DNA of 64,000 bases, from contig CANKBS010000001.1 in the NCBI GenBank assembly GCA_947480015.1, positions 62,001 through 126,000 on the forward strand, read 5' to 3'. The DNA is from Sphingobacteriaceae bacterium. GTDB taxonomy: Bacteria > Bacteroidota > Bacteroidia > B-17B0 > Aurantibacillaceae. Within the stretch, counting starts at the first letter, position 1; every line of letters starts with the position of its first letter. This document shows positions 13,035-28,023 of the stretch, piece by piece. The notes under the pieces are model-generated. The model searched no databases. It worked only from the letters and a program-made list of their open reading frames with translations, and was not told the origin of the DNA. The position numbers were made by a program, and so were the translations under genes.

Positions 13035-16000
13035 ATGAAAAAGTCCCATAAAATAGTAAGGTATATCGCTCTTTTCCTCGGCTTAAGTTTTTGGACTCAA
13101 GCGCAAAATGCCAATACGGTTTGCGCAAACCCTACACCCTTCTGCACAGGACAGGTTATGAATTTTCCTGCACAAACAGGTGGAGGTGTTGCACAACCGG
13201 GTCCAAACTACGGTTGTTTAGGTTCACAGCCGCGCCCAACTTGGTTTTATTTTCAAACGGCCACGGCTGGTTCTATGGTTATTACCATGTCGGCCACCAA
13301 TGATATTGATTTTATCTGCTGGGGACCATTTCCAAATTTAAATCAATGCGGTAATCTCACCTCTGCCACACAGGTTCCGGGTTCGGGTTATGGTAGCGCT
13401 ACCTCAAATGGATGCAGCTATTCGGGCTCACCTACCGAAACCTGCACCATAGCCAACTGCTTACCTGGTCAGTTTTATATCATGCTTATTACCAATTTTA
13501 GCGGTGCTACTCAGAATATTACCTTCACGCAGCAAAATGCCTTGTCACCGGGTGCAGCTTCTACCAATTGTGGACTCGTGTGTTTTGTGAGTCCAACTAA
13601 TAGTGGTATGATATGCGCAGGATCAACGGCTACTCTGGCGCTCACGACGAGTAGTTCTGTTACGTCATTCACCTGGTCAGGCCCCGGTGGTTTCAGTTCA
13701 ACCTTTACCAGTGCTGTTGTTACAGGGCTTATGGCCAACGCAACGTATACGGTTAGAGGGTCTTCCACGGCAACGCTGAATGGTATTCCAACAACAGGTA
13801 CCTGTCAGGCAGTAACGACCATTAGTGTTGTACCCTATCCGAATTTTAGCGTTAATCCCACCTATACCAGTATTTGTCAGGGTGGGTCTTTTTCGGCCGC
13901 CGTTAATTTTACTATACCCATTACGCCTGGACCATTTTCCTTTAATTGGACACCCAGCCCCGGCTCGGTGATTTGGTCGCCTTTTTCTCCGGTAACTACC
14001 ATCTTTCCACCCCTTTCACCAACTAATGTAACGCTTACTACTTTGGTTTATACCATAACGGTTTGGCCTACCAATACGGTTGTAACCTGTCCCATCTCGC
14101 AAACCATGCAAGTTATTATCAATAACCCTCTAACCCCTTCCTTAACCATGCCGCCGCCCATGTGCGACACTTATAGCCCTATTAATTTAGTGGCGACTCC
14201 CGGAGGTGGGACTTGGAGCGCAAATCCGGCTGTTTCGCCCGCCGGGGTCTTTAATCCGGCCATTGCAGGAAGCTATAAAAACCTTGTTACCTATGCAGTA
14301 AGTGTGGGTACATGCGTGGTAAGTAATTACGACTCAATTTTTGTTTCCAAATATGTTCCTCCAACACTTACAAACAGTATCAGCCCCATGTGTGTTCAGG
14401 ATCTTCCCATTAATCTCATGAACATTGTGCAAACCACTGTAACAGGCAGCTGGTCTGGCCCAAATGTGGTTAATCCGCCACCTCCACTCAACTTTATTTA
14501 TAATTTTAATCCGGCTGGTTTAGCAACAGGTAATTATATTCTAAAGCATCGTACTTGGTCATGGCCAGATGCAAGTGTTTGTCCCGATTCCGTGAATCTT
14601 CAAGTTGCGGTGTTTAATCCGGTAATTCCAACCATTTCAAACATTACAGCAAAATGCACCAATGCCGCACCCGTTCAATTAATTGCTAGTCCAACGGGTG
14701 GCCTTTGGTCAGGCAGCACCGGGGTTTCACCATCGGGTGTTCAAACACCTTCATCTTGCGCCTGGAGCACGGTTAACACGGTTACCTATACGGCTGGTCA
14801 AGGAACCTGCGTAGCCTCTTCGTCAAGAACCTTTAACGTTTCGCGATATAATACTGCCGCGCTAACGGGTACTGTGCCAAATATGTGTGTAAGTACGCCT
14901 CCTTTTAACCTCATGACTATTGTGCAAAACACCAATGGGGTCTGGTCGGGCAATGTGGCTGCTAACTTTTTTATTCCACTTGGATTACCTACCAATACGT
15001 ATGCTTTGGTTTATTCTACCGTATCTACACCCGATCCATTCCTTTGTCCCGAATCTTCAACTATTATTGCTTCAGTTTTAAATCCGCAAACACCGGTTAT
15101 AACTCAAGCCGGACCATTTTGTACTGCCGGATCGCCGGTACAGTTAACCGTTACCCCCGCAATAGGTTATTGGGTCACATCACCATTTCTGAATGCTAAC
15201 GGTGTTTTTTCGCCGGCACAAAGTCCGGTTGGTAGCAACATGGTGCAATATGTAATTGGTACAAGTTCGTGTAATGTGAGTTCAAGTGTTTATTTTAGCA
15301 CAGAGGCATTTATTTCGGCGGCCATTAGCGGTTTAGTGCCTGATGTTTGTAATAACGGGTCGCCTGTTAACCTCTCACCAATTACCATAAGTAATTTAGG
15401 CACATGGACTGGTCCGGGAATTTCAGGAACTAGTTTTAATCCGGTTGTTACAGGTCCGGGTAAATATACCTTGCAGTATAACACCTCTTCCCAACCCAGT
15501 GGCTTATGCCCTGATCAAGCTACGGTTAATGTTCAAGTGTATTCTTTAGCCGAACCAAGTATTGCTAAAGTTAGCCCAAAATGTAATAATGCGGCGCCAT
15601 TTCAAATTATGGTGAGTCCGGTTGGCGGTTTGTTTGGTTCGGCAACAGCTGGACTCATAACCCCTAGCGGGGTTTTTAATCCGGCACTAGGGGTTATTGG
15701 TACGAATTTAATCAGTTACAGTATTTCAGTTGGACCCTGCTTGGCTTATGCGCAACAATCTGTTACAATAGATAAATTTATTTCAGCCGGTTTTGAAAAA
15801 ATGCCTGAACTATTCTATTGCAAAAACAAATTACCTTTTGATCTTTTTAGTATGGTTCAAAACCCCGATATCACTAAATTCATATTCACTAGTAACGAAG
15901 GTGGGGTTATTAATGGGCACATGTTTGATCCTGATAAGGCTAATGTAGGACCAAATGTGATTGAATATTTCACTTATTCTGCGACAAGCGCTTTGTTATG

Positions 16001-16838
16001 TCCCGATAGAAGTTCGATCACCATTAATATTAAAGCAGTTCCTGCAATCAGTGCCATAAGTAATAAATATGAAGCCTGCGCACCTGCGCTCATTGTCTTA
16101 ACAGGAGATAAAACTTCCGGTTCAGGGTCGTGGAATTTTGGTGATGGAACACCCGACCAATCGGGACTCTCAGTCAATCACACCTACCATACTCCCGGTA
16201 CTTATACGGTGGTGTTTAATTACTATGATAACGACGCAAGTGGATGTATCGCTCAATATACCTTATCACCAAAAATTTTGGTGAAAGAATCACCCACTGC
16301 GAATTTCACCTATTATCCTGACGAGTTAAGTATTTCAAATCCTGAAATTACTTTAAACAATAGAAGTACGGTGCTTTCTAATAATAAATATGTGTGGACG
16401 GTACAAGGACTTTATGAATTTACCGATGTTAACCCTCAATTTAATTTTCCGCAAATTGGTAATTACCGTATCACCCTAAATGCTACTAATCTTGCTGGTT
16501 GCACCAGTGAAACGAGTCAGTTTGTGGAAGTGAAAAACGATTTTAATGTTTACATACCCAACTCATTTACGCCGAATGCAGATGGTTTAAATGATAAATT
16601 TTTACCTGTTTTCTCTCCTTATGGATTGGATGCAAAAACGTATGAAATGGATATTTATGATCGTTGGGGGCATGTGATATTTAACACAAAAGATTACACC
16701 AAGGGCTGGGATGGCACTTTAAACAACAAAAGCGATTTGCCTTTAAAAGAAGATTCGTACACCTATAAAGTTCATTACAAAGATCTGGAAGGCCGTGTTT
16801 ATAATAAGTCCGGCGTGGTAATAATGTTGCCGAATTAA
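13035..16838 (+). CDS. Giant secreted repeat protein with gliding-motility-type (type B) T9SS C-terminal domain
   Basis: A 1267-residue cell-surface or secreted protein. A signal peptide ends near residue 23 (...FWTQAQ). The first about 180 residues form a Cys-rich domain (CANPTPFCTGQ). An Ig-like region follows, and then four copies of an alternating A-B module pair beginning near residues 373, 538, 692 and 847; B halves begin near 450, 614, 769 and 923. A PKD-like domain (SGSWNFGDGTPD, about 1030-1075) precedes the C-terminal domain at about 1172-1267. That domain opens VYIPNSFTPNADGLNDKF and contains the IYDRWGHVIF strand, the type B gliding-motility sorting signature (TIGR04131-like). Type B cargo in other species needs a PorP/SprF partner, absent here. 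The likely role is adhesin; the ligand is unknown. Confidence 0.88.
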   Translation: MKKSHKIVRYIALFLGLSFWTQAQNANTVCANPTPFCTGQVMNFPAQTGGGVAQPGPNYGCLGSQPRPTWFYFQTATAGSMVITMSATNDIDFICWGPFPNLNQCGNLTSATQVPGSGYGSATSNGCSYSGSPTETCTIANCLPGQFYIMLITNFSGATQNITFTQQNALSPGAASTNCGLVCFVSPTNSGMICAGSTATLALTTSSSVTSFTWSGPGGFSSTFTSAVVTGLMANATYTVRGSSTATLNGIPTTGTCQAVTTISVVPYPNFSVNPTYTSICQGGSFSAAVNFTIPITPGPFSFNWTPSPGSVIWSPFSPVTTIFPPLSPTNVTLTTLVYTITVWPTNTVVTCPISQTMQVIINNPLTPSLTMPPPMCDTYSPINLVATPGGGTWSANPAVSPAGVFNPAIAGSYKNLVTYAVSVGTCVVSNYDSIFVSKYVPPTLTNSISPMCVQDLPINLMNIVQTTVTGSWSGPNVVNPPPPLNFIYNFNPAGLATGNYILKHRTWSWPDASVCPDSVNLQVAVFNPVIPTISNITAKCTNAAPVQLIASPTGGLWSGSTGVSPSGVQTPSSCAWSTVNTVTYTAGQGTCVASSSRTFNVSRYNTAALTGTVPNMCVSTPPFNLMTIVQNTNGVWSGNVAANFFIPLGLPTNTYALVYSTVSTPDPFLCPESSTIIASVLNPQTPVITQAGPFCTAGSPVQLTVTPAIGYWVTSPFLNANGVFSPAQSPVGSNMVQYVIGTSSCNVSSSVYFSTEAFISAAISGLVPDVCNNGSPVNLSPITISNLGTWTGPGISGTSFNPVVTGPGKYTLQYNTSSQPSGLCPDQATVNVQVYSLAEPSIAKVSPKCNNAAPFQIMVSPVGGLFGSATAGLITPSGVFNPALGVIGTNLISYSISVGPCLAYAQQSVTIDKFISAGFEKMPELFYCKNKLPFDLFSMVQNPDITKFIFTSNEGGVINGHMFDPDKANVGPNVIEYFTYSATSALLCPDRSSITINIKAVPAISAISNKYEACAPALIVLTGDKTSGSGSWNFGDGTPDQSGLSVNHTYHTPGTYTVVFNYYDNDASGCIAQYTLSPKILVKESPTANFTYYPDELSISNPEITLNNRSTVLSNNKYVWTVQGLYEFTDVNPQFNFPQIGNYRITLNATNLAGCTSETSQFVEVKNDFNVYIPNSFTPNADGLNDKFLPVFSPYGLDAKTYEMDIYDRWGHVIFNTKDYTKGWDGTLNNKSDLPLKEDSYTYKVHYKDLEGRVYNKSGVVIMLPN

Positions 16839-16852
16839 ACTAAATTAAAATG

Positions 16853-16890
16853 CAAAAAAAACCCGATTCGAATTTCGAATCGGGTTTTTT
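16853..16890. terminator. Bidirectional terminator between convergent genes
   Basis: Ten-bp perfect stem CCCGATTCGA / TCGAATCGGG (16862-16871 with 16875-16884) and a 3-base loop, with an A run on the left and TTTTTT on the right. It separates the plus-strand giant protein gene from the minus-strand response regulator gene. Confidence 0.92.
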
Positions 16891-16903
16891 AGTTTTAATG
16901 ATT

Positions 16904-17605
16904 TTATGGATTCACCAATAATTTAAATCCTTTACCGTGAATATTGATAATCTCAACTTTTGGATCGTCTTTTAAGTACTTACGCAGTTTGGCAATGTAA
17001 ACATCCATACTTCGTCCGTTAAAATAATTATCGTCGTGCCAAATTGATTTTAGTGCAAAAGTTCTATCGAGCACATCGTTTTTATGAATACAAAGCAACC
17101 GTAATAACTGACTTTCTTTGGTGGTAAGCTTTTGTTCAACGCCATCATGTTGTAGTATTTGTTTTTCCGAATTAAATTGGTATTTACCGATTTTAAAGTC
17201 CACGTCTTCCGCTTCAGTTGAACGAACCTTGTTGGTTCTTCTAAGCACAGCTGTAACACGGGCTAAGAGTTCTTCCATGCTAAATGGCTTGGTAATATAA
17301 TCATCGGCCCCGGCATTAAAGCCTTCAATGGTGTCTTCTTTCATGCTTTTGGCAGTAAGAAAGATGATAGGAATGTTTTTATCTACCACTCTAATATCCT
17401 TAGCTAAGCTCAAGCCATCCTTAACCGGCATCATTACATCTAACAACAATAAATCAAAAGATCCTTTAAAAAAGACATCTCCTCCCTTTTTCCCGTCATC
17501 TGCTAATTTGGTTTCGAAGCCTTTGGCCTCAAGGTACTCTTGTAAAAGTGGACCTAAACTTGGGTCGTCTTCTACTAATAAAATGCGTGTTTTAACAGTT
17601 TCCAT
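16904..17605 (-). CDS. OmpR-family response regulator (RprY-like)
   Basis: A 233-residue two-component transcription factor. The receiver domain (about 6-120) has the acidic pair in LLVEDD, phospho-acceptor Asp56 in LLLLDVMMP, the conserved Thr-Ala (FLTAK) and Lys of KPF. The C-terminal winged-helix DNA-binding domain (about 135-230) shows RLLRLLCIHKNDVLDR and the DVYIAKLRKYLKDDP...IINIHGKGFKL recognition part. It lies downstream of the sensor kinase on the same strand with a 74-bp gap that holds a -7 box, so it may be both co-transcribed and independently expressed. The closest described type is Bacteroides RprXY; target genes are unknown. Confidence 0.93.
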   Translation of the reverse strand: METVKTRILLVEDDPSLGPLLQEYLEAKGFETKLADDGKKGGDVFFKGSFDLLLLDVMMPVKDGLSLAKDIRVVDKNIPIIFLTAKSMKEDTIEGFNAGADDYITKPFSMEELLARVTAVLRRTNKVRSTEAEDVDFKIGKYQFNSEKQILQHDGVEQKLTTKESQLLRLLCIHKNDVLDRTFALKSIWHDDNYFNGRSMDVYIAKLRKYLKDDPKVEIINIHGKGFKLLVNP

Positions 17606-17661
17606 TAATACTAAATGTTAAATGATTTAATTAAAGGTAGGCACTAAGCCTGCCATTTTAA

Positions 17662-17669
17662 CAAATTTA
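17662..17669 (-). promoter_or_regulatory. Predicted -7 box TAAATTTG between kinase and response regulator genes
   Basis: TAAATTTG on the minus strand matches TAnnTTTG and ends 56 nt before the response-regulator ATG. The region is a run of TTAACAAAT-like repeats, so a chance match is possible. Confidence 0.35.
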
Positions 17670-17679
17670 ACAAATATTA

Positions 17680-19224
17680 TCAAATCGGCAAATGAACACT
17701 GAAAGTACTTCCTTTCCCAACATCTGAGTTAACAGAAATGGTGCCGTTGTGTTTAAGAACTACGGCTAAAACATAGGAAAGGCCTAAACCAAAACCTTTT
17801 ACATTATGAACGTTACCCGTAGGCACACGGTAAAATTTATCGAAAATTTTACGTTGATTTTCTTTTGAAATCCCAATCCCATTATCTTTTACCTGAATCA
17901 TAATGCCTTCGGCAGTGTTATAGGTTGAAATGGTGATTTCGGGAATTTCTTTCGAATACTTAATGGCGTTATCGATGAGGTTAAAAATAATATTTGTAAG
18001 ATGAACCCGATCGGCCTGTAATTTAAAATTTTGCGCTTTTAAAAAGGTGTTAACAGTACCCAAGCGTTGATTAATTAAGAGGTGTGTGTTATTAATGGCT
18101 GTGTTAATGATTTCGTGTACATCTACTTCACTGAGTTTTAATTTAAATTCCCCTTTATCCAAAATAGAAGTTTGTAAAATACTCTCCACTAACACACTTA
18201 AACGTTTATTCTCATCCCGGATCATTTTTAAATACCGTTGTTTTTTTTCCGGAGTCTGCGAAATGCTCTGGTCGCCTAGCATTTCACTGGCAAGGGATAT
18301 GGTGCTAATGGGTGTTTTAAACTCGTGCGTCATGTTGCTGATAAAATCATTTTTGATGAGCGATAATTTTTTTTGTTTTAAATTATTCACCATGATGTAA
18401 TAAAAGGAGAACGTGAGAATTAATATGACAACAATACTCGTAATTAAAAAAGGCCACATTTGTTTAAATACATCCCTATCCTGTGTTGGAAAATAAACAA
18501 TGAGGTATTCCGGATCGATAAAGGAATTAGTGGGGGAAAGGTTTACCACATAATGTTCAACGCCCAAGGAATCGAGTGCGTTCTCGGCTTGTTTGAGATC
18601 GCTGTGGTGTTGACTGCCGGGGTACAAAAACGTTAATGAGTAATTATAACGGGCTGTAATTTTTTGCGCAAGAAGTTCATGTCTTAAAATGGAATCGAGT
18701 AAAACGGTATCTACTTTTTGTTTGCGGTTATTGTAAAAGTTTTGCGTGTACGAAAGGTCAAAATAACTGTTGCCAACAATGTTGTTAGGGAGATCTTTGT
18801 TTTGTGATTTTAAACTGGATTGCTGATCGAGCAAACTTTTAAGAAAACGGCTAGCACGAATGTCAATTTGGCCCGAATCTTCACGCAACAAATCTTTTTT
18901 AGTATACCGACTGCTTTGATGTCCGTTACTGTCGGTACTTAGCTCGGTACTTAGCATCCCAATGGGATTGTTGTTTTGGCCTTTGATGTCGGGGTTATTA
19001 AAAACAATACCGGAAGTGCGAATGGTTTGTTTTTTATAATCACTTCGCGGATCGAGTCGTTCGAGTTTAGCTGAGGTTTTATTTAAGGCATCGTCTACAC
19101 GGCTTTTAAAATATTCCTCTCGCACTTTAAAGTCATTGTTAATCCAATAAGCCTGAAACCAAATCAACACGAGAAGTGCAACTGAAAACGAAACAGAAAT
19201 AAACGTAAAAAGCCTTTTGTTCAT
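17680..19224 (-). CDS. Membrane sensor histidine kinase (RprX-like)
   Basis: A 514-residue kinase partnered with the response regulator just downstream. TM1 is at about 7-29. An extracytoplasmic sensor region of about 225 residues follows, with no recognised domain. TM2 is at about 258-280. The HisKA dimerisation domain has His300 in FISNMTHEFKTPIS, and the HATPase domain has the N box (IIFNLIDNAIKYS), G1 (VKDNGIGIS), F (FDKFYRV) and G2 (GFGLGLSYV). All catalytic motifs are intact. A TAACTTTG box lies only 5 nt upstream of the ATG, suggesting a leaderless transcript. The signal is unknown. Confidence 0.94.
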   Translation of the reverse strand: MNKRLFTFISVSFSVALLVLIWFQAYWINNDFKVREEYFKSRVDDALNKTSAKLERLDPRSDYKKQTIRTSGIVFNNPDIKGQNNNPIGMLSTELSTDSNGHQSSRYTKKDLLREDSGQIDIRASRFLKSLLDQQSSLKSQNKDLPNNIVGNSYFDLSYTQNFYNNRKQKVDTVLLDSILRHELLAQKITARYNYSLTFLYPGSQHHSDLKQAENALDSLGVEHYVVNLSPTNSFIDPEYLIVYFPTQDRDVFKQMWPFLITSIVVILILTFSFYYIMVNNLKQKKLSLIKNDFISNMTHEFKTPISTISLASEMLGDQSISQTPEKKQRYLKMIRDENKRLSVLVESILQTSILDKGEFKLKLSEVDVHEIINTAINNTHLLINQRLGTVNTFLKAQNFKLQADRVHLTNIIFNLIDNAIKYSKEIPEITISTYNTAEGIMIQVKDNGIGISKENQRKIFDKFYRVPTGNVHNVKGFGLGLSYVLAVVLKHNGTISVNSDVGKGSTFSVHLPI

Positions 19225-19229
19225 TGCGG

Positions 19230-19237
19230 CAAAGTTA
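19230..19237 (-). promoter_or_regulatory. Predicted -7 box TAACTTTG directly before the kinase start codon
   Basis: TAACTTTG on the minus strand matches TAnnTTTG and ends 5 nt before the ATG at 19222-19224. If used, transcription would begin at or very near the start codon. Confidence 0.5.
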
Positions 19238-19288
19238 GTTTAATTTAAAACCTTGCTAAAATAAAAAATGCAAAAATTCTTAATTCGC

Positions 19289-20767
19289 TCATTCAATCAA
19301 CTGTTCAATAGGTGTGTGAACGCCGTTTTCGTATACATAACATTTTAATTTATCCTTAAACACATAAGGTTTGTAAATTGATTTATTAAGAAGCATGCGT
19401 AAACACTCTTGCACCCCTTCAATAATACTCGGATGTGGGTGCATCATATCAGCCAGTTCTCTAATTCCCTGATTGGTGTGAATGAGATAGGCAACACCTT
19501 GTATGGCACTACTGGCATGTTCGCCAACTACACGCATGCCTAAAATACGCATGCCATTATCGTTGCTTACTATGATTTTAAAAAAGCCCTTGGTTTTTCG
19601 CATGGCAATGGCACGGGCGTTGGTTGTAAAGTCGAGTTTCACGACTTTATGTGGAATTCCTTTGGCGATGCAGTCTTGCTCGCTCATGCCCACTGAGGCC
19701 ACCTCAGGATTCAAAAACATAATGGTACTAATGTTTTTGTAGGTGAGTGGTTTAACTATCGGTCCGAACATACGAACCACGGCATGCCTTGCCTCTCTTT
19801 CCCCCACATTTACCAGAGCCACTTCGGTAGTCACATCACCGGCAACATAAATATTACTGATATTGGTTTGGGTATCATCATCCCAAATAGACCCTCGTTC
19901 GTTAATTCTTATTCCAACATTTTCGAGACCAATGTTTTCGACGTTCGCAACACGGCCAATGGAGACGAGTGCCTTGTCAACCGTGATAACTTCAATGCTG
20001 CCGTTTTTATAGGCGAGTTCGTATTCAACTTTACCGTTCTTTATCTCCATGCGATTTAAGGAAGCGCCCTGATGAACCTGAGCCCCTTGTAATTCAAGAT
20101 TGGTTTTAATAATCTCGGCTACATCCTCATCTTCAAATGGCAAAATTCGTTCGGCTTTATCAATCAAATAAACTTTTGTTTTTCCAAAGGCAGAAAAGAT
20201 GGTGGCAAATTCGCAGCCAATAACCCCCGCACCAAGCACCACCATGCTTTTGGGTAGGGATGTAAAATTTTTAACGCTGTCGCTGGTAACGATGATCTCA
20301 TTATCAACTTCAATGTTGTTGGGAATCCTCGGGCGACTGCCTGTAGCAATGAGCATATAATCGGTGCTAACTTTTTTAAGCTGGCCATCTTCTTTAATAA
20401 TTTGAATGGTATGTTTGTCAAGAATTGAGGCCGTGCCCTTTTCGTAGGTAAATAATTTTTTTGGAAGCGTTTGCAGTAACTGTAAATGTACTGTCATTTG
20501 TGTTTTACGTTCAAAGATGGCCTCGTTTACAATTTTGGTAATACTTTCTATGTTGGCTTCATAACCCGGAATTAACTCACGGATGGAGGCTACCTTAAGC
20601 GCCTGTTCCCAAAGCGTTTTGGATGTTAATACGCCATCGTATACCCCGGCACCACCGATGCGTTTTTTTTCGATAAGCAGCACGCGTTTCCCAAAATCGA
20701 TGGCACGCATGGCTCCGGCGTATCCGCTAGGACCGGCACCAATAACAATGAGATCAAAATGTTCCAT
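19289..20767 (-). CDS. Lipoamide-dehydrogenase-like FAD/NAD(P) oxidoreductase lacking the redox disulfide
   Basis: A 492-residue cytoplasmic flavoprotein with the class I pyridine nucleotide-disulfide oxidoreductase fold: FAD-binding GAGPSGYAGA (10-19), a second nucleotide-binding motif VVLGAGVIGCEFA, the FAD-contacting YVAGDV segment, and the C-terminal dimerisation domain with the catalytic His445/Glu450 pair (HPHPSIIEG). In the active-site segment, where the family reads GGTCLNxGCIPSK, this protein reads GGAGVYDGVLTSK (38-50). Both redox cysteines are replaced (Gly41, Val46) while Lys50 is kept. It therefore cannot use the normal dithiol mechanism; soluble transhydrogenase-like hydride transfer is an alternative, unproven. 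It lies upstream of the kinase gene on the same strand (64-bp gap). Confidence 0.88.
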   Translation of the reverse strand: MEHFDLIVIGAGPSGYAGAMRAIDFGKRVLLIEKKRIGGAGVYDGVLTSKTLWEQALKVASIRELIPGYEANIESITKIVNEAIFERKTQMTVHLQLLQTLPKKLFTYEKGTASILDKHTIQIIKEDGQLKKVSTDYMLIATGSRPRIPNNIEVDNEIIVTSDSVKNFTSLPKSMVVLGAGVIGCEFATIFSAFGKTKVYLIDKAERILPFEDEDVAEIIKTNLELQGAQVHQGASLNRMEIKNGKVEYELAYKNGSIEVITVDKALVSIGRVANVENIGLENVGIRINERGSIWDDDTQTNISNIYVAGDVTTEVALVNVGEREARHAVVRMFGPIVKPLTYKNISTIMFLNPEVASVGMSEQDCIAKGIPHKVVKLDFTTNARAIAMRKTKGFFKIIVSNDNGMRILGMRVVGEHASSAIQGVAYLIHTNQGIRELADMMHPHPSIIEGVQECLRMLLNKSIYKPYVFKDKLKCYVYENGVHTPIEQLIE

Positions 20768-21037
20768 AGATAAAAAGATGAATTTACAATTTATTGTTAG
20801 ATGAAATTAGCGTCACACCAAAAACGGGGCTTAACGCGACCTATTTATTGGATGCTACCCCATTAACTTGTGAAAATGGCCCCTGTTGACAAATTAGGGT
20901 AAAGCCTAAAATCAGAGCGTCTAAATTATCAAATTCCGACTTCGCGATTTAAAATATAACAGTTTGTAAATCAATTTGATAAAAATTTTCACTATTCGAC
21001 TAAAATGTATATTTTTGCAGCCCTATAAATTAAAATT
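20768..21037. other. Divergent intergenic region upstream of hppA
   Basis: 270 bp between the minus-strand flavoprotein and the plus-strand pyrophosphatase gene. Apart from the -7 box at 21010-21017 I see no riboswitch-like conserved core, hairpin terminator or small ORF that I can support. Room for regulation exists on both sides. Confidence 0.5.
21010..21017 (+). promoter_or_regulatory. Predicted -7 box TATTTTTG for hppA
   Basis: TATTTTTG fits TAnnTTTG and ends 20 nt before the ATG at 21038. A TTTG at 20975-20978 is too far upstream (31-nt spacer) to be a good -33 element. Confidence 0.5.
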
Positions 21038-23827
21038 ATGAACGAAAGTGTTATTTATTTAGTCCCGGCTCTCGGGATAATTGGATTGATAGTAATGGCC
21101 ATTAAGTCTGCCTGGGTAAGCAAGCAGGATGCCGGTGATAAAAATATGCAGGAGCTGGCAGGTTATATAGCTGATGGCGCTATGGCCTTTTTAAAAGCAG
21201 AATGGAAAGTGTTGAGCATCTTTGTGGTGTTTGCTGCTGCATTATTAGCGTATTCAGGAACTATACATGAAGTAAACGGTCAGGAAATTCACTCCAGCTG
21301 GATCATTTCCATTGCCTTTATCATAGGTGCTGTATTCTCTGCAACCGCAGGATATATTGGCATGAAAGTGGCTACTAAAGCCAACGTTCGTACCACACAA
21401 GCAGCCCGCACGAGTTTAAAACAAGCTTTAAAAGTTTCTTTCACCGGTGGAACTGTAATGGGTTTAGGTGTTGCCGGTTTAGCAGTGTTAGGCTTAGGTG
21501 GTTTGTTTATTGCATTTTTGGCCATATTCGCTAATTTGGGTGAAAACACCGTTAAAACCGCCATTGAGGTTTTAACTGGTTTCTCATTGGGTGCCGAATC
21601 AATTGCCTTATTTGCCCGTGTAGGTGGTGGTATTTATACAAAAGCAGCCGATGTGGGTGCCGACTTAGTTGGTAAAGTTGAAGCCGGAATTCCTGAAGAC
21701 GATGTTCGTAATCCTGCTACCATTGCCGATAACGTAGGCGATAACGTAGGTGACGTTGCCGGAATGGGTGCCGATCTTTTTGGTTCTTATGTGGCAACCA
21801 TTTTAGCAACCATGGTATTAGGTCAGGAAATTAAAGTGGTAGATAATTTTGGTGGAATGTCTCCAATTTTATTACCCATGGTAATTTGTGGTTTAGGTAT
21901 TATTTTCTCTATCATCGGTACTTGGTTTGTTACTATTAAAGATGACAAATCAAATGTACAAAATGCATTAAACCTAGGTAACTGGGCTTCCATGTTAATT
22001 ACGGTAATTGCTTCTTACTTCATCGTAATGTATATGTTACCTGAAAAATTAAGCTTACGTGGATATGAGTTCACTAACTTAAATGTATTCTTAGCTATTG
22101 TAGTTGGTACAGTTGTAGGCGCTATTATGAGTATTGTAACTGAGTATTACACGGCAATGGGTAAAGCTCCTGTATTATCTATCATTCAACAATCTTCAAC
22201 CGGCCATGCTACCAATATCATTGGTGGTTTATCGGTAGGGATGAAGTCTACCGTGATTCCAATTTTAACCTTGGCAGCCGGTATTATGTCATCTTATTAT
22301 TTTGCCGGATTATACGGTGTAGCCATTGCTGCAGCCGGTATGATGGCCACAACAGCTATGCAATTAGCAATTGATGCATTCGGACCGATTGCGGATAATG
22401 CCGGTGGAATTGCTGAGATGAGTCAGTTACCTCCTGAAGTGCGTGAACGTACCGATAATTTAGATGCCGTAGGTAATACAACAGCTGCTACCGGTAAAGG
22501 ATTTGCCATTGCTTCAGCCGCCTTAACCTCTTTAGCCTTATTTGCAGCCTTCGTTGGTATTGCAGGGATTGATGCCATTGATATTTATAAAGCACCAGTA
22601 TTAGCCGGTTTATTTGTGGGTGGTATGATTCCATTTATTTTCTCAGCACTTTGTATCCAGGCGGTTGGTAAAGCGGCTATGGACATGGTTCAAGAGGTTC
22701 GTCGTCAGTTTCGCGAAATCCCGGGAATCATGGAATACAAAGCAAAACCGGAGTATGAAAAATGTGTCGCTATTTCAACCAAAGCTTCCATTCGTGAAAT
22801 GATATTGCCAGGCGCTATTGCCTTAATCACGCCATTACTTGTTGGTTTTATTTTTGGACCGGAAGTATTAGGTGGTCTTTTAGCCGGTGTAACTGTTAGC
22901 GGTGTGTTAATGGGAATTTTCCAAAGTAACGCCGGTGGCGCTTGGGATAATGCTAAAAAATCGTTTGAAAAAGGGGTGATGATAAATGGAGAAATGTTTT
23001 ACAAAAAATCAGAACCACACAAGGCTTCAGTAACCGGTGATACAGTTGGTGATCCATTTAAAGATACTTCAGGGCCCTCTATGAACATTCTCATTAAATT
23101 AATGAGTATCGTATCCTTGGTTATTGCTCCATACATTGCCGTGCAAAACGGTGGTAAAGATGCTTGTTGCGAAAAAGGTGCCATGCAAGCCGGTGTGTTT
23201 ACCTGTATGATTAATGGTGAGCAACACACGTGTAGCAGCCAAAATCAGTGTGATAGTTTAGTTGCTGCTAACACCAAAGACATTGCCGAATTACAAGGCT
23301 TGTTTTTAGTAGATGGTGTTCACAGCTCAGTGAATTTTAGTGTTAAACACATCATAAGCAATACCAAAGGAAATGTTACCATTGATAGCGGTTTTGTGAA
23401 TCTTCAAAATGTTAATGGCCCTAAAATTTTTATTCAATTAGATATGACAACTTTGAATACTCAAAACTCATACCGTGATGAAAAATTAAAAAACAAAGAA
23501 GACTTTTTTGATGTAACAAAATTCAACAAAGCTGTTTTTGTTGCTACTGATGTGGTGAAGAATGAATCGGAAGGCGCTTATGCTTTTACAGCAAAAGGAA
23601 AACTTACGCTGAAAGGTGTTACTAAGGATGTAGAATTAAACTTTAATTATTTTGGTACGGAAAGCAATGTGGAAGCGGATGCAAGCGGCAAGGAACATAA
23701 ATTCCAAACTGCAGGATTTGCGGGAGAAGCCATGGTAAACAGAAAAGATTTTGGTATTACAGGATCTTCGGTGTCTGATATGGTGAAAATTGAAATGTCT
23801 ATTGAAGCCTATCAAGAAGGCAACTAA
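21038..23827 (+). CDS. hppA: Membrane ion-translocating pyrophosphatase fused to a C-terminal YceI domain
   Basis: A 929-residue fusion. Residues 1 to about 705 are a complete membrane pyrophosphatase that couples PPi hydrolysis to H+ or Na+ export. The signature [11 protein letters not shown] and following [20 protein letters not shown] are intact, and [10 protein letters not shown] (478-487) has Ala where K+-independent enzymes have Lys, so a K+-dependent type is expected. The core ends in the usual last helix ([18 protein letters not shown]). A Cys-rich linker follows (about 706-750, five Cys), and then a YceI-like lipocalin domain (about 755-929) opening [16 protein letters not shown] and containing [16 protein letters not shown] and NRKDFGIT. 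Known pyrophosphatase structures place the C-terminus outside the cytoplasm, so the YceI part should be periplasmic. No frameshift or internal stop separates the parts. A terminator follows. Confidence 0.93.
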
Positions 23828-23845
23828 TATTTTTCTTAAATACAG

Positions 23846-23875
23846 ATCCCCGGCCTAAGACCGGGGATTTTTTTT
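23846..23875 (+). terminator. Rho-independent terminator after hppA
   Basis: ATCCCCGG / CCGGGGAT stem (23846-23853 with 23861-23868), 7-base loop, followed by a run of eight or more T. It begins 19 bp after the stop codon. Confidence 0.93.
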
Positions 23876-24060
23876 GCCTTGAAATTGGATAAAATAAATT
23901 TTTTACTCCAAAACGACATGGTTTTTATTTCAAAGGAGTAAAATCTAAATCCATTCAGACTTTAGCTAAAGACCCTTAAAAAATATATCTAGGAATTTCT
24001 AAAAAAATCAGTAAATTTATATTTACCTAGTTGAGTTATAAAACTATTAAACAGAACCCT

Positions 24061-25911
24061 ATGAAAAAATCCTTACTTTTTTTACTGTGTCTTACACTAA
24101 TTTCATTTAGTCGTATGAAGTCGCAATGCGTGTTCTCTTGTTATAATTATACGCTAGCGCCAATCACTTATTCTGCCTTTCCAAATGGCGGCACGAATGT
24201 TATTCCTTATTTTCTTCCAACTATTGACGACGGGATTACCTCTCCATTGCCCATAGGTTTTAATTTTAATTATTACTGTGGAACTTATAGCAATGTGCTT
24301 ATTTGTTCGAATGGATTTATCCAGTTTGATATCGGTTCACCACCGAGTTTGGCATTTTCTAACCCGGCTCAAACCTTCCCCGATCCTACCAGTCCGAATG
24401 GTATTGTAGCACTTAACATGAATGATTTTGATCCAAATATGGGAGGTAGTATTACCTATACAACCATTGGGACAATGCCAAACAGACGGTTTATTGTAAC
24501 CTACAGCAATGTGCCTATTTGGAACTACAATACCAGTTTAAATGACGGTCAAATTGTGTTATTCGAAACTACCAATGTGATCGAAATTCACTCCAACAGC
24601 ATTAATGCTTCTAACACCAATATTTACAATGGTACACAAGGTATTGAAAACCCGGCTGGAACACAGGGCATAGGTGTTCCGGGTCGCAACAATACTTTAT
24701 TTCAGGTAACCACACCGTCTGCGTATCGTTTTGTTCCGGTTGCGACATACAGTCCGATGCCACCTACTTCTATTGCAGGACCAACACAGGTTTGTCAGGG
24801 GAGTACCAATAATTATACCGTAAGTGCTTCTCCAAATGCAACATCTTATGCTTGGTATTTGCCTCCGGGCTGGGGTGGAAGCAGCACCACATCTGTTATC
24901 CCTGCATTAGGCGGCACCAGCGGTAACGTTTCGGTAGCAGCCACCTATTCCTGTGGTACCTCTGCACCTATTGGTTTTTCGGTAACCGTCATACAAGCCC
25001 CTGTTGTAGCCTTAAGTGTTACACCGTCTATTTTATGCACGGGGGTTACTGTAACATTTAATGCCACCGGAGCTATCACGTATACACTTGATCCGATTGG
25101 TATTATTGGCGGACCGCCGTTTACCACCATGCCATTTATTAGTACAACCTATACGCTTCATGGTGTAGATGCCACCGGATGCGCTTCGCAAAATATTGCA
25201 ACAGCTTTTGTTACCGTAAAAGAAACGCCAACCGTATCGGTTAACAGTGGCACGGTTTGTATTGGACAAGGATTTACCATAACGCCCGTAGGCGCCCCGG
25301 CATACGTTTTTTCAAGCACTTTTGCGAATGTTACGCCTACCTTAGGTGTGAATAATTATTCGGTAGTTGGAACGGGAACTAATGGTTGTGTAAGTAATAC
25401 GGCTATTTGCACCGTTACAGCTATGGCCTTGCCGGTGATTGCTGCAGTGCCCACCCGTTCGGCAATATGCATTAAGGAATCCACCACCATTAAAGTGAGT
25501 GGCGCAAGCACCTATACCTGGAGCACCAATGCTACAGGAACCGTAATAACCGTTAATCCAATTGGAACCTCGGCTTATAATGTAACCGGAACGGATGCGC
25601 GTGGATGTGTAAATTCAGGCACGGCAACTGTTATAGTGAATGCCTGTACTGGCATCGCAAGCACTAGTAATCAAACGAGTTTAATTCAACTTTTCCCAAA
25701 TCCAACAAAGGGTGTTTTTAAAGTACATTCAACCATAGCCGGTGAAAACAGCAGTATAGAAGTTTACAATTCTATTGGGGCATTAATTTTGGTTCAAAAA
25801 TTAGTTAATGAGGAGACTGAAATTAATCTGACTGAGTATGCGAATGGATTGTATTATGTGAAATTAAAAGCAAGCAATCAAGAAAGCACCTTAAAACTGA
25901 TTAAAAACTAA
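24061..25911 (+). CDS. Secreted T9SS type A cargo protein with Ig-like/PKD-like repeats
   Basis: A 616-residue secreted protein. I chose the ATG at 24061, giving signal peptide MKKSLLFLLCLTLISFSRMKSQ, over an in-frame TTG at 24031 that would add ten residues before it. The N-terminal half (about 25-230) is a globular domain with ...GFNFNYYCGTYSNVLICSNGFIQF, a pattern common in Bacteroidota surface proteins. About 250-550 holds Ser/Thr/Gly-rich Ig-like modules with paired cysteines. The C-terminal about 75 residues (LIQLFPNPTKGVFKVHS to the end, LKLIKN) are a type A Por secretion sorting domain. The function is unknown; most likely a surface adhesin or structural protein. Confidence 0.85.
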   Translation: MKKSLLFLLCLTLISFSRMKSQCVFSCYNYTLAPITYSAFPNGGTNVIPYFLPTIDDGITSPLPIGFNFNYYCGTYSNVLICSNGFIQFDIGSPPSLAFSNPAQTFPDPTSPNGIVALNMNDFDPNMGGSITYTTIGTMPNRRFIVTYSNVPIWNYNTSLNDGQIVLFETTNVIEIHSNSINASNTNIYNGTQGIENPAGTQGIGVPGRNNTLFQVTTPSAYRFVPVATYSPMPPTSIAGPTQVCQGSTNNYTVSASPNATSYAWYLPPGWGGSSTTSVIPALGGTSGNVSVAATYSCGTSAPIGFSVTVIQAPVVALSVTPSILCTGVTVTFNATGAITYTLDPIGIIGGPPFTTMPFISTTYTLHGVDATGCASQNIATAFVTVKETPTVSVNSGTVCIGQGFTITPVGAPAYVFSSTFANVTPTLGVNNYSVVGTGTNGCVSNTAICTVTAMALPVIAAVPTRSAICIKESTTIKVSGASTYTWSTNATGTVITVNPIGTSAYNVTGTDARGCVNSGTATVIVNACTGIASTSNQTSLIQLFPNPTKGVFKVHSTIAGENSSIEVYNSIGALILVQKLVNEETEINLTEYANGLYYVKLKASNQESTLKLIKN

Positions 25912-25929
25912 AGGTGCACCGGTCTGCAG

Positions 25930-25967
25930 AATTGTTTTCGGAAAAATTATTTCGGAAAACAATTTTG
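25930..25967. terminator. AT-rich long hairpin, possible terminator
   Basis: AATTGTTTTC (25930-25939) pairs perfectly with GAAAACAATT (25955-25964), with a further GAAA/TTTC pairing inside the 15-base loop, then TTGT. It lies 18 bp after the T9SS gene. The U tract is weak, so this could instead be an mRNA-stabilising stem or a palindromic binding site. Confidence 0.5.
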
Positions 25968-26030
25968 TAAATTGGTAAACAAAAGCCGCAACGCTTTTTT
26001 GCTATTTCATTCAACGATCAAAAAACAGTT

Positions 26031-27095
26031 TTGTATTTTAAGCCACTAAATTTTATTCGCTTCCTTTTGGCCTTTGGGGTGGTGCTTTTTCATTATGGTG
26101 TGAAGTATTATCCATTTAATACACCCCTTTTAAAGACATTTATTTTAAACAGCGGTTTCAGGGTTTCTTTTTTCTTTTTTATTTCAGGTTTTGTGATGAC
26201 CCTCGTTTATGGTCCGCAAGTAACAACGGTAAGTCCGACCCAATTCTATAAAAAACGATTCACGCGTATTTTTCCTGTGTATTGGTTTGCGTTTATTTTT
26301 ACCCTGCTGCTGGTATTGTTTGTGAATCATTCTTCGCCAAAAGGTTTGGTGGTAATTATACATGGCTTGGGTTTACAAAGTATTCTGCCGGGCTTTGTAC
26401 TCGATCTTAATTATCCTACTTGGTCAATATCGGTTGAATTGTTTTTTTATGCCCTTTTCCCATTCATACTTAAGTGGTTGATGAAGCAGACCAACAGGTT
26501 TTTGTTTTACATTACGGCTGCTGTATGGGTCTTGCAATCCCTACAGCATATTTTATTTATGGCGTTTATAAGTTATTCAAAACACAGCGAGGAGTTTATG
26601 AATGCTTTTCCGCTTTGGCATTTTGGCACTTTTTTTGCAGGCATGTTTAGCGCACGATTAATTCTAAGCAATGCCATCCCACTGAAGCTACAAAGGCGTG
26701 CAAGTGTTGTTTTTGTGTTAACCGGATTGCTTTTTTTGAGCATTATTTTTATTCCAAATCCTTTGATGAGGTACATTCATAATGGACTTTTATCGCCGCT
26801 TTTTGCTGTGTTTGTTTTGAGTTTATTTTACGACGCCTCATTTATTGGCCGAACATTAGCCTTAAAGCCCTTGAGTCGTTTAGGCGATTTGAGTTATGGT
26901 TTGTTTATTTTTCAGTACCCAATTTGGATTGTATATAATCAGTTTATTACGCCTTCGTTTATTGAAAGTAACTGGTTTTTTACGTTGTATTTCGGCATTC
27001 TACTTGTTTTTTCATGGGGCGTAAACAGCTATGTAGAAAAACCACTTTTGCTTTATTTAAGGCGAGACGATTCAAACAAAGCAGTTAAAATCTAA
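26031..27095 (+). CDS. Acyltransferase family 3 (OafA/YrhL-like) membrane protein
   Basis: A 354-residue integral membrane acyltransferase of the type that acetylates surface sugars or antibiotics. About ten hydrophobic helices are visible. The N-terminal family motif LNFIRFLLAFGVVLFHYG carries the proposed catalytic His, followed by RVSFFFFISGFVMTLVY and the YKKRFTRIFPVYW segment, both typical. The TWSISVELFFYALFP motif in the middle is diagnostic. The start is a TTG at 26031; no upstream ATG fits. It stands alone between a T9SS gene and exonuclease III. The acceptor is unknown. Confidence 0.9.
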   Translation: MYFKPLNFIRFLLAFGVVLFHYGVKYYPFNTPLLKTFILNSGFRVSFFFFISGFVMTLVYGPQVTTVSPTQFYKKRFTRIFPVYWFAFIFTLLLVLFVNHSSPKGLVVIIHGLGLQSILPGFVLDLNYPTWSISVELFFYALFPFILKWLMKQTNRFLFYITAAVWVLQSLQHILFMAFISYSKHSEEFMNAFPLWHFGTFFAGMFSARLILSNAIPLKLQRRASVVFVLTGLLFLSIIFIPNPLMRYIHNGLLSPLFAVFVLSLFYDASFIGRTLALKPLSRLGDLSYGLFIFQYPIWIVYNQFITPSFIESNWFFTLYFGILLVFSWGVNSYVEKPLLLYLRRDDSNKAVKI

Positions 27096-27165
27096 TCAAA
27101 ACAAATTGAGGTAGAGGTTTTTTTTCGCTTCATAAATTTTACCTTCGTCGTTCAAAATAGTTGAC

Positions 27166-27927
27166 ATGCGCATCATATCATATAACGTAAACGGCATCAG
27201 AGCCGCTATGAGTAAAGGATTAATAGAATGGATGAAGGAAACGGATCCGGATGTATTATGTTTACAAGAAATTAAAGCCAGTCCCGATCAAGTTGGCGTA
27301 ATCGAATTTGAAGCACTGGGTTATCATCACTTTTGGTATCCGGCGCAAAAAAAAGGTTATTCCGGTGTTGCCATATTTTCAAAAACCAAACCTAACAATG
27401 TGGTTTATGGTTGTGGTATTAAAGCCTATGATGAGGAGGGTAGAATTATAAGAGCCGATTATGATAACTTCTCGGTGATGAGTGTATACCATCCAAGTGG
27501 CAGTAGCGGTGAGTTGCGCCAGGCATTTAAAATGAAATGGCTCGAGGATTTCCAGAACTATGTGACCGAACTTCGCAAAACAATCCCAAATCTCATTTTA
27601 TCGGGCGATTTTAATATTTGTCATAAACCCATCGACATACACAATCCAAAATCCAATGCCAATACCAGCGGTTTTTTACCTGAAGAGCGCGAATGGATGG
27701 AAAACTTTATCAATACTGGCTTTACCGACACCTTCAGGCATTTTAATCAAGACCCGCACCACTACAGCTGGTGGAGCTACAGAGCCGGATCACGCGGGAA
27801 GAACCTGGGTTGGCGAATAGATTATAATTTAACTGCCGAAAATTTACGTGAACGCTTGAGCCACTCTGCTATTCTGCCTGAGGCCATGCACAGCGATCAT
27901 TGTCCGGTATTGCTCGAAATTGACTAA
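27166..27927 (+). CDS. xth: Exodeoxyribonuclease III (AP endonuclease)
   Basis: Cleaves DNA 5' of abasic sites and degrades 3' ends during base-excision repair. The 253-residue protein is of normal length and shows the endonuclease/exonuclease/phosphatase fold motifs: ISYNVNGIRAA at the N-terminus (catalytic Asn), LCLQEIKA (metal Glu), VYHPSG, LSGDFNICHKPIDI (Asp/Asn), WWSYR near the substrate pocket, WRIDYNL and the terminal SDHCPV His. All catalytic positions are intact. The start is the ATG at 27166; a near-match promoter box (TACCTTCG at 27140-27147) precedes it. Confidence 0.96.
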   Translation: MRIISYNVNGIRAAMSKGLIEWMKETDPDVLCLQEIKASPDQVGVIEFEALGYHHFWYPAQKKGYSGVAIFSKTKPNNVVYGCGIKAYDEEGRIIRADYDNFSVMSVYHPSGSSGELRQAFKMKWLEDFQNYVTELRKTIPNLILSGDFNICHKPIDIHNPKSNANTSGFLPEEREWMENFINTGFTDTFRHFNQDPHHYSWWSYRAGSRGKNLGWRIDYNLTAENLRERLSHSAILPEAMHSDHCPVLLEID

Positions 27928-27985
27928 GTGGTCTAATTTTATTGCACTTTTATCTAAATTATGTGACTTTTGGAGTATTGTAACC

Positions 27986-27993
27986 TATATTTG
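27986..27993 (+). promoter_or_regulatory. Predicted -7 box TATATTTG for the peptide-binding lipoprotein gene
   Basis: TATATTTG matches TAnnTTTG, 30 nt before the ATG at 28024. It also argues against the longer reading frame starting at 27970, whose start would lie upstream of the box. A TTTG at 27969-27972 has only a 13-nt spacer. Confidence 0.5.
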
Positions 27994-28023
27994 TTAGAGT
28001 ATAAACCCTCCAAATTTAGCCTT

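Follow-up and report, generated by a model that had tools for sequence, protein, structure and literature searches.

The closest described systems are flavoproteins that share the fold of lipoamide dehydrogenase (Lpd, E3; TIGR01350) and lack all or part of its redox disulfide. Irc15p of Saccharomyces cerevisiae, an Lpd relative in which both redox cysteines are absent and the His-Glu pair is present, is reduced by NADH at 250 per second and itself reduces ferricyanide, DCPIP, MTT, and menadione, and no reduction of cystine, glutathione, or lipoamide by it was seen (PMC6296175). LpdA (NF005883; 1xdi) has the same fold and an incomplete redox pair, with one Cys missing and no His-Glu pair, and is a published quinone reductase (PMC6296175). 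Soluble transhydrogenases (STH; SthA/UdhA; NF003585) are FAD enzymes that share this fold but have no disulfide, carrying a CXXXXT motif and a Tyr in place of the catalytic His, and in E. coli SthA the changes C45A and T50C each cut transhydrogenation roughly tenfold (PMC9460512). Given these three precedents, an enzyme that dispenses with the disulfide and relies on direct flavin chemistry is nothing new in kind. Our literature search, judged from titles and the starts of abstracts, found no description of a bacterial clade in which both cysteines are gone and the His-Glu pair is kept. Here, we analyzed a 64,000-nucleotide stretch of DNA (the window) that encodes a member of such a clade, which is a real, conserved variant of a known fold and easily misnamed.

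A flavoprotein clade without the redox cysteines

The flavoprotein gene opens with ATG, closes with TGA, and encodes a protein with the Pfam domains Pyr_redox_2 and Pyr_redox_dim (Table 1), whereas the plus strand of the same interval carries stops throughout in the frame shown. Its active-site segment aligns residue by residue and gap-free with lipoamide dehydrogenase segments of the GGTCLNxGCIPSK type, including those from enzymes of known structure, just as a sequence-only reading of this DNA had described. Gly41 and Val46 stand where the first and second Cys would be expected, and Lys50 is retained. That reading had also held that everything but the disulfide is kept, and we confirmed both replacements together with Lys50, both glycine-rich cofactor motifs, His445, and Glu450. 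Among 100 clade rows examined, G10, G12, and G15 of the FAD motif are present in all 99 that cover them, and G179, G181, and G184 of the NAD(P) motif in all 100.

Table 1. Features of the flavoprotein gene, its product, and its neighbors, in window coordinates
Feature	Position	Strand	Basis
Cys-less flavoprotein, disulfide-reductase fold, 492 aa	19289..20767	-	ORF call, Pfam, fold match of predicted model
GGAGVYDGVLTSK, residues 38-50, usual place of redox CxxxxC	20618..20656	-	sequence, clade counts
FAD-binding GAGPSG, residues 10-15	20723..20740	-	sequence; clade alignment
NAD(P)-binding GAGVIG, residues 179-184	20216..20233	-	sequence; clade alignment
His445 to Glu450, catalytic His-Glu pair of disulfide reductases	19418..19435	-	158/158 rows covering each
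Asp203, presumed end of second strand of nucleotide domain	20159..20161	-	alignment
Sensor histidine kinase	17680..19224	-	HisKA + HATPase_c (Pfam); 64 bp downstream of flavoprotein gene
OmpR-type response regulator	16904..17605	-	Response_reg + Trans_reg_C (Pfam)
Divergent H+-pyrophosphatase-YceI fusion	21038..23827	+	H_PPase aa 14-696, YceI aa 758-924 (Pfam)
Divergent intergenic region, 270 bp	20768..21037	.	between flavoprotein and pyrophosphatase genes

We gathered 161 different clade sequences, six of them near-copies at 99% identity or above. Among the 158 that cover the motif, Cys never occurs at position 41 or 46 and Lys50 is always present; position 41 is occupied by Gly (145), Ala (12), or Gln (1), and position 46 by Ala (89) or Val (69), never by Thr. 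At the other end of the protein, H445, E450, and R457 occur in all 158 sequences covering the C-terminus, a set that overlaps the motif-covering set in 156 sequences, the others being partial. Removal of the six near-copies leaves the picture as it was, at 153/153 for the motif and 152/152 for the C-terminus. Nearly all of the Cys-less sequences lie in open frames, and pN/pS values of 0.14 to 0.28 against seven relatives (synonymous sites being saturated in six of the seven pairs) indicate purifying selection. With neither Cys found in any covering sequence, and with Lys50, His445, and Glu450 retained wherever covered, the change cannot be put down to local loss or to error. Strain-specific decay or a sequence error, in favor of which nothing was found, is barely credible given a Cys-less motif in 158 of 158 covering sequences, nearly all of them in open frames, and purifying selection, and was ruled out. 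The sequence-only reading had suggested looking for a conserved clade, with near relatives that keep CxxxxC as the result that would speak against it; we found none. Its preference for a different reaction over decay draws further support from the window genome, which also carries two CxxxxC lipoamide dehydrogenases (with GGTCLNVGCIPSK and GGICLNWGCIPTK), so that the job of Lpd appears to be covered there.

Several residues are near-invariant in the 100 clade rows and absent at the same places in 12 canonical Lpds, including Ala17, Leu47, Asp203, Arg327, Ser347, Arg390, Arg412, Gln453, and Arg457, though some show exceptions in the larger set of 161. Asp203, which by the usual layout of the fold would close the second strand of the nucleotide domain, is Asp in 155, Glu in four, and Asn in two of the 161 clade sequences, and the corresponding residue is Glu in all 12 canonical Lpds compared. 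This pattern in the alignment suggests, rather than proves, a preference for NAD(H), and three STH rows (L289, L291, and L293) also carry Asp here.

Disulfide chemistry might persist if the thiol relay had moved to another cysteine, for which Cys455 (152 of 158 sequences) and Cys185 (160 of 161) would be the candidates. Cys455, however, is replaced by Ala in five and Gly in one of the 158, and Cys185 directly follows the NAD-binding GxGxxG and is found in two of the 12 canonical Lpds and in 21 of 26 STH rows as well. Its position next to that motif and its presence in Lpds and STHs make Cys185 an unlikely replacement near the flavin. With C455 variable and C185 beside the NAD motif, we rejected a relocated redox Cys as very improbable.

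Relation to lipoamide dehydrogenases, transhydrogenases, and LpdA

Judged by score, the clade proteins come nearest to dihydrolipoyl dehydrogenases and can easily be given that name. The fold of the predicted model matches those of lipoamide dehydrogenases and STH, with Lpds as the top matches, but because Lpd, STH, MerA, and LpdA all fall within about 3 Z units (VIA-align, 37.6 to 40.8 among the 50 rows shown), fold matches cannot choose between these families. Moreover, the model is weak just where the active site lies, with pLDDT values below 50 for residues 36-44 and 443-448. The window protein and three distant clade members reached no NCBIfam cut-off, as judged from the best 25 of 62 families for the window protein and from families under E 1e-60 for the others. 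Against the TIGR01350 (Lpd) cut-off of 408.8 bits, the window protein scores 356.7 and the distant members 368.4, 355.2, and 371.5; the corresponding values are 288.2 and 270.3, 283.8, and 266.5 for NF003585 (STH; cut-off 465 bits), and 270.5 and 270.1, 269.3, and 248.7 for NF005883 (LpdA; cut-off 479 bits).

The clade shares with Lpd the fold, the FAD and NAD motifs, Lys50, and the His-Glu pair, but differs from it in lacking CxxxxC, in scoring below the Lpd cut-off, and in forming a separate branch. As the disulfide is absent, the clade proteins are not expected to carry out the Lpd reaction. The loss of the catalytic pair and the Lpds at the top of the fold matches would fit a pseudoenzyme or a structural, E3-like subunit, noncatalytic though still holding fold and cofactors. 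We consider this improbable: across a wide sequence range, no covering sequence departs from H445, E450, K50, or the cofactor motifs, and inspection by eye of the ORFs of at least 100 aa at window positions 14000-28000 showed no pyruvate or oxoglutarate dehydrogenase gene.

Phylogenetic placement was assessed with two trees. The first omitted the motif and C-terminal columns and comprised 26 clade, 14 STH, 11 Lpd, three LpdA, and three MerA/GR rows; the 26 clade rows formed one group with support of 100/100, and clade, STH, and the one glutathione reductase row fell on one side of a branch supported at 95/80. In the second tree, which excluded the glutathione reductase and one of the MerA rows for their long branches, clade and STH made up one side of a branch (86/77), a grouping recovered in 864 of 1,000 bootstrap trees compared to 14 for clade and Lpd. 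The AU test nevertheless rejected neither a grouping of the clade with Lpd (p 0.274) nor one with LpdA (p 0.391). We therefore lean, weakly, towards STH as the sister group in these sequence comparisons.

This lean bears on the possibility that the clade proteins are soluble transhydrogenases, in which NADH and NADP+ (or NADPH and NAD+) would alternate at one nicotinamide site by way of the FAD, providing an energy-free counterpart of PntAB. Beyond the weakly nearest place in the tree, STH shares with the clade Arg327 (all 26 STH rows compared) and mostly Cys185. The two differ at the active site, where each of the 26 STH rows carries Thr at position 46 and FNYPT at the place of the C-terminal His, with SXXXXT and GXXXXT variants also seen, whereas the clade has Ala or Val at 46 and His445 in every covering sequence. 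The roughly tenfold losses caused by C45A and T50C in SthA (PMC9460512) also speak against transhydrogenation with such a motif. A further point against it is Asp203, which may disfavor NADP(H), though some STHs carry Asp as well.

LpdA differs from the clade in lacking both the His and the Glu, each of which the clade has in all 158 covering sequences. A related LpdA-type protein on an Arthrobacter plasmid (L177:101-1477; GGSAVLTDVVPSK) lacks both cysteines as well as the His-Glu pair. By its published features alone, Irc15p is the most similar in having lost both cysteines and kept the His-Glu pair, but it is microtubule-associated and derives from a duplicate of yeast LPD1 (PMC6296175). As the paper traces it to that yeast gene duplication (PMC6296175), descent of Irc15p from the clade is unlikely.

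Distribution and gene neighborhoods

Of 60 genomes searched, the window's own included, 37 belong to the same genus, and 35 of these hold the gene at 66% identity or above, in two pieces in G003 and with one internal stop in G011; the other two, G005 (73% complete) and G017 (100% complete), gave only matches of 30 to 33%. Three of the remaining 23 genomes, all of the same class, hold a relative at 52 to 58%. A scan of public genomes yielded 78 loci that were kept, with identities of 58 to 84% in Bacteroidota and 43 to 48% in Myxococcales or Deltaproteobacteria. Profile scans placed the clade in 103 of 395 genomes and 51 of 196 genera of the class (E of at most 1e-110), in eight of 395 genomes of the phylum, and in 12 of 282 genomes of the phylum to which a myxobacterial relative, itself counted, belongs. 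The count for the phylum follows the removal of two of its ten matches, G256 and G413 (about 340 bits), which are canonical CxxxxC Lpds. The 5,000 plasmid matches kept were all below 60% identity and showed no clade member, the best of the 30 matches listed reaching 32.9%.

Downstream of the flavoprotein gene lie a sensor histidine kinase and a response regulator on the same strand. The earlier statement that the flavoprotein gene sits upstream of a two-component system holds when the genes are followed as they are transcribed, on the minus strand, where 64 bp separate the flavoprotein stop codon from the start of the kinase gene, and the kinase gene is probably co-transcribed with it. From this arrangement, the sequence-only reading had raised redox signaling, in which the state of the flavin would be passed to the adjacent kinase and its regulator. 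The same gene order recurs in 19 loci besides the window, with gaps below 70 bp in 15 of the 19, and a different, divergent kinase adjoins the clade gene in three more (L118, L147, and L148). Yet our neighborhood set of 147 loci, in which some genes are counted twice (for example L098/L254 and L103/L248), includes 139 with a gene downstream, and just 19 of these have the pair in the adjoining position, all at 66% identity or above to the window protein, while the other 120 lack it; moreover, Pfam finds just HisKA and HATPase domains in the kinase. A redox-sensing partnership is thus decidedly improbable, and signaling was rejected as the general role of the clade. The divergent kinase of L118, L147, and L148, identified by Pfam in L118 and by similarity clustering in the other two, belongs to a cluster other than that of the window's kinase.

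On the opposite side, across the intergenic region, a divergent pyrophosphatase gene occupies the position immediately upstream in 30 of 144 loci with an upstream gene, all closer relatives (those listed at 66% identity or above), with one such locus, L253, assigned to the same family by group code. In the window, its H_PPase and YceI domains, the latter presumably isoprenoid-binding, are joined through a Cys-rich linker. Full-length homologues beside clade genes are mostly 909 to 950 aa long, which suggests the same architecture, and our literature search found no paper on a membrane H+-pyrophosphatase-YceI fusion.

A gene whose first part resembles, by eye, a di-haem cytochrome c peroxidase is found near the clade gene in 14 loci, mostly convergent (L103, L217, L218, L221, L223, L234, L237, and L248 among them). 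In six myxobacterial loci, the opposite strand carries an acetyltransferase-like gene upstream of the clade gene (L107, L108, L109, L111, L116, and L266; Pfam: L107). In the window, 13035-16838 and 24031-25911 encode large, apparently secreted proteins of a Bacteroidota type as judged by eye, the second with a C-terminal stretch that resembles a type IX sorting signal. A link to defense systems was dropped after PADLOC gave no match.

Transhydrogenation draws its genomic support from pntA and pntB. Genes of pnt lie no more than four genes away in six of the 147 loci. In four of them (L096, L097, L117, and L208), pntA-pntB follows directly downstream on the same strand, an immediate adjacency for which a rough calculation over 147 genomes, taken at 3,500 genes each, gives about 0.02 cases expected by chance. 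L241 has pnt genes downstream past one ORF, assigned by similarity only, and in L212 they are convergent. Pfam found both PntA and PntB in L096, L097, and L117, PntA in L208, and PntB in L212, and L096 and L097, though sister rows, have different pnt types (three genes versus two). Across genomes of the class, on the other hand, PNTB occurs in 56 of 103 with the clade and 190 of 292 others (odds ratio 0.64, Fisher p 0.059, kinship uncorrected), and with no positive co-occurrence a strict partnership with PntAB was rejected.

Canonical STH was found in just one of 198 genomes of the class, so the role of a soluble transhydrogenase looks vacant there. That one genome, G831 (69% complete), has two STH copies, L268 and L269, both with the GXXXXT motif GGAGVQTGTLPSK, in which the first Cys is missing. 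In the myxobacterial phylum, canonical STH occurs in 39 of 188 genomes, and since two of them, G553 and G613, also hold a clade member, the clade is not simply an STH substitute there. Weighing the tree, the pnt loci, and the near-absence of STH against the active-site residues, the AU test, and the lack of positive co-occurrence, we regard the transhydrogenase reading as possible but rather unlikely.

Proposed function

The reading we favor, tentatively and at a little under an even chance, is that the clade comprises NAD(P)H-dependent, homodimeric FAD enzymes without a thiol relay, which transfer electrons directly from the flavin to an acceptor. The FAD content, the dimer, the preference for NADH, the acceptor site, and the reaction are all inferred. 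NADH, probably preferred over NADPH, would reduce the FAD on one face, and the resulting FADH2 would pass both electrons straight to a small acceptor with no dithiol in between. This acceptor would occupy the space vacated by the disulfide, which Gly or Ala at position 41 and Ala or Val at position 46 would open up and where His445 and Glu450 of the partner subunit might serve as the acid-base pair that protonates it. That the His-Glu pair is retained, though it is lost in LpdA and altered in STH, is our reason for placing the acceptor on the side that the disulfide used to occupy. As acceptor we would first consider a quinone or some other small organic oxidant, with the enzyme working like Irc15p and its direct flavin step resembling those of STH and LpdA. 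The suggestion of the sequence-only reading, direct NAD(P)H-quinone or transhydrogenase chemistry, may be called a good guess by analogy with Irc15p, LpdA, and STH (PMC6296175 and PMC9460512). Between the two, nicotinamide exchange fits better than quinone reduction with the lean of the tree towards STH (86/77) and with the pntA-pntB loci, and it is the chief competitor of the reading we favor.

A more speculative proposal, which we think unlikely to hold in full, is that the clade makes up a separate enzyme class in Bacteroidota and Myxococcota, one that lost the dithiol but kept the His-Glu pair for a new acceptor bound on the side where the disulfide had been. Such a class would be connected with NAD(P)H balance and with partners that pump ions, either PntAB or the pyrophosphatase-YceI fusion depending on the lineage, and would fill the place of the missing STH. 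The clade offers a natural experiment on what the His-Glu pair does without a thiol, and, given how rare canonical STH is in the class, it may be the soluble enzyme, otherwise missing, that keeps NAD(P)H in balance in these bacteria.
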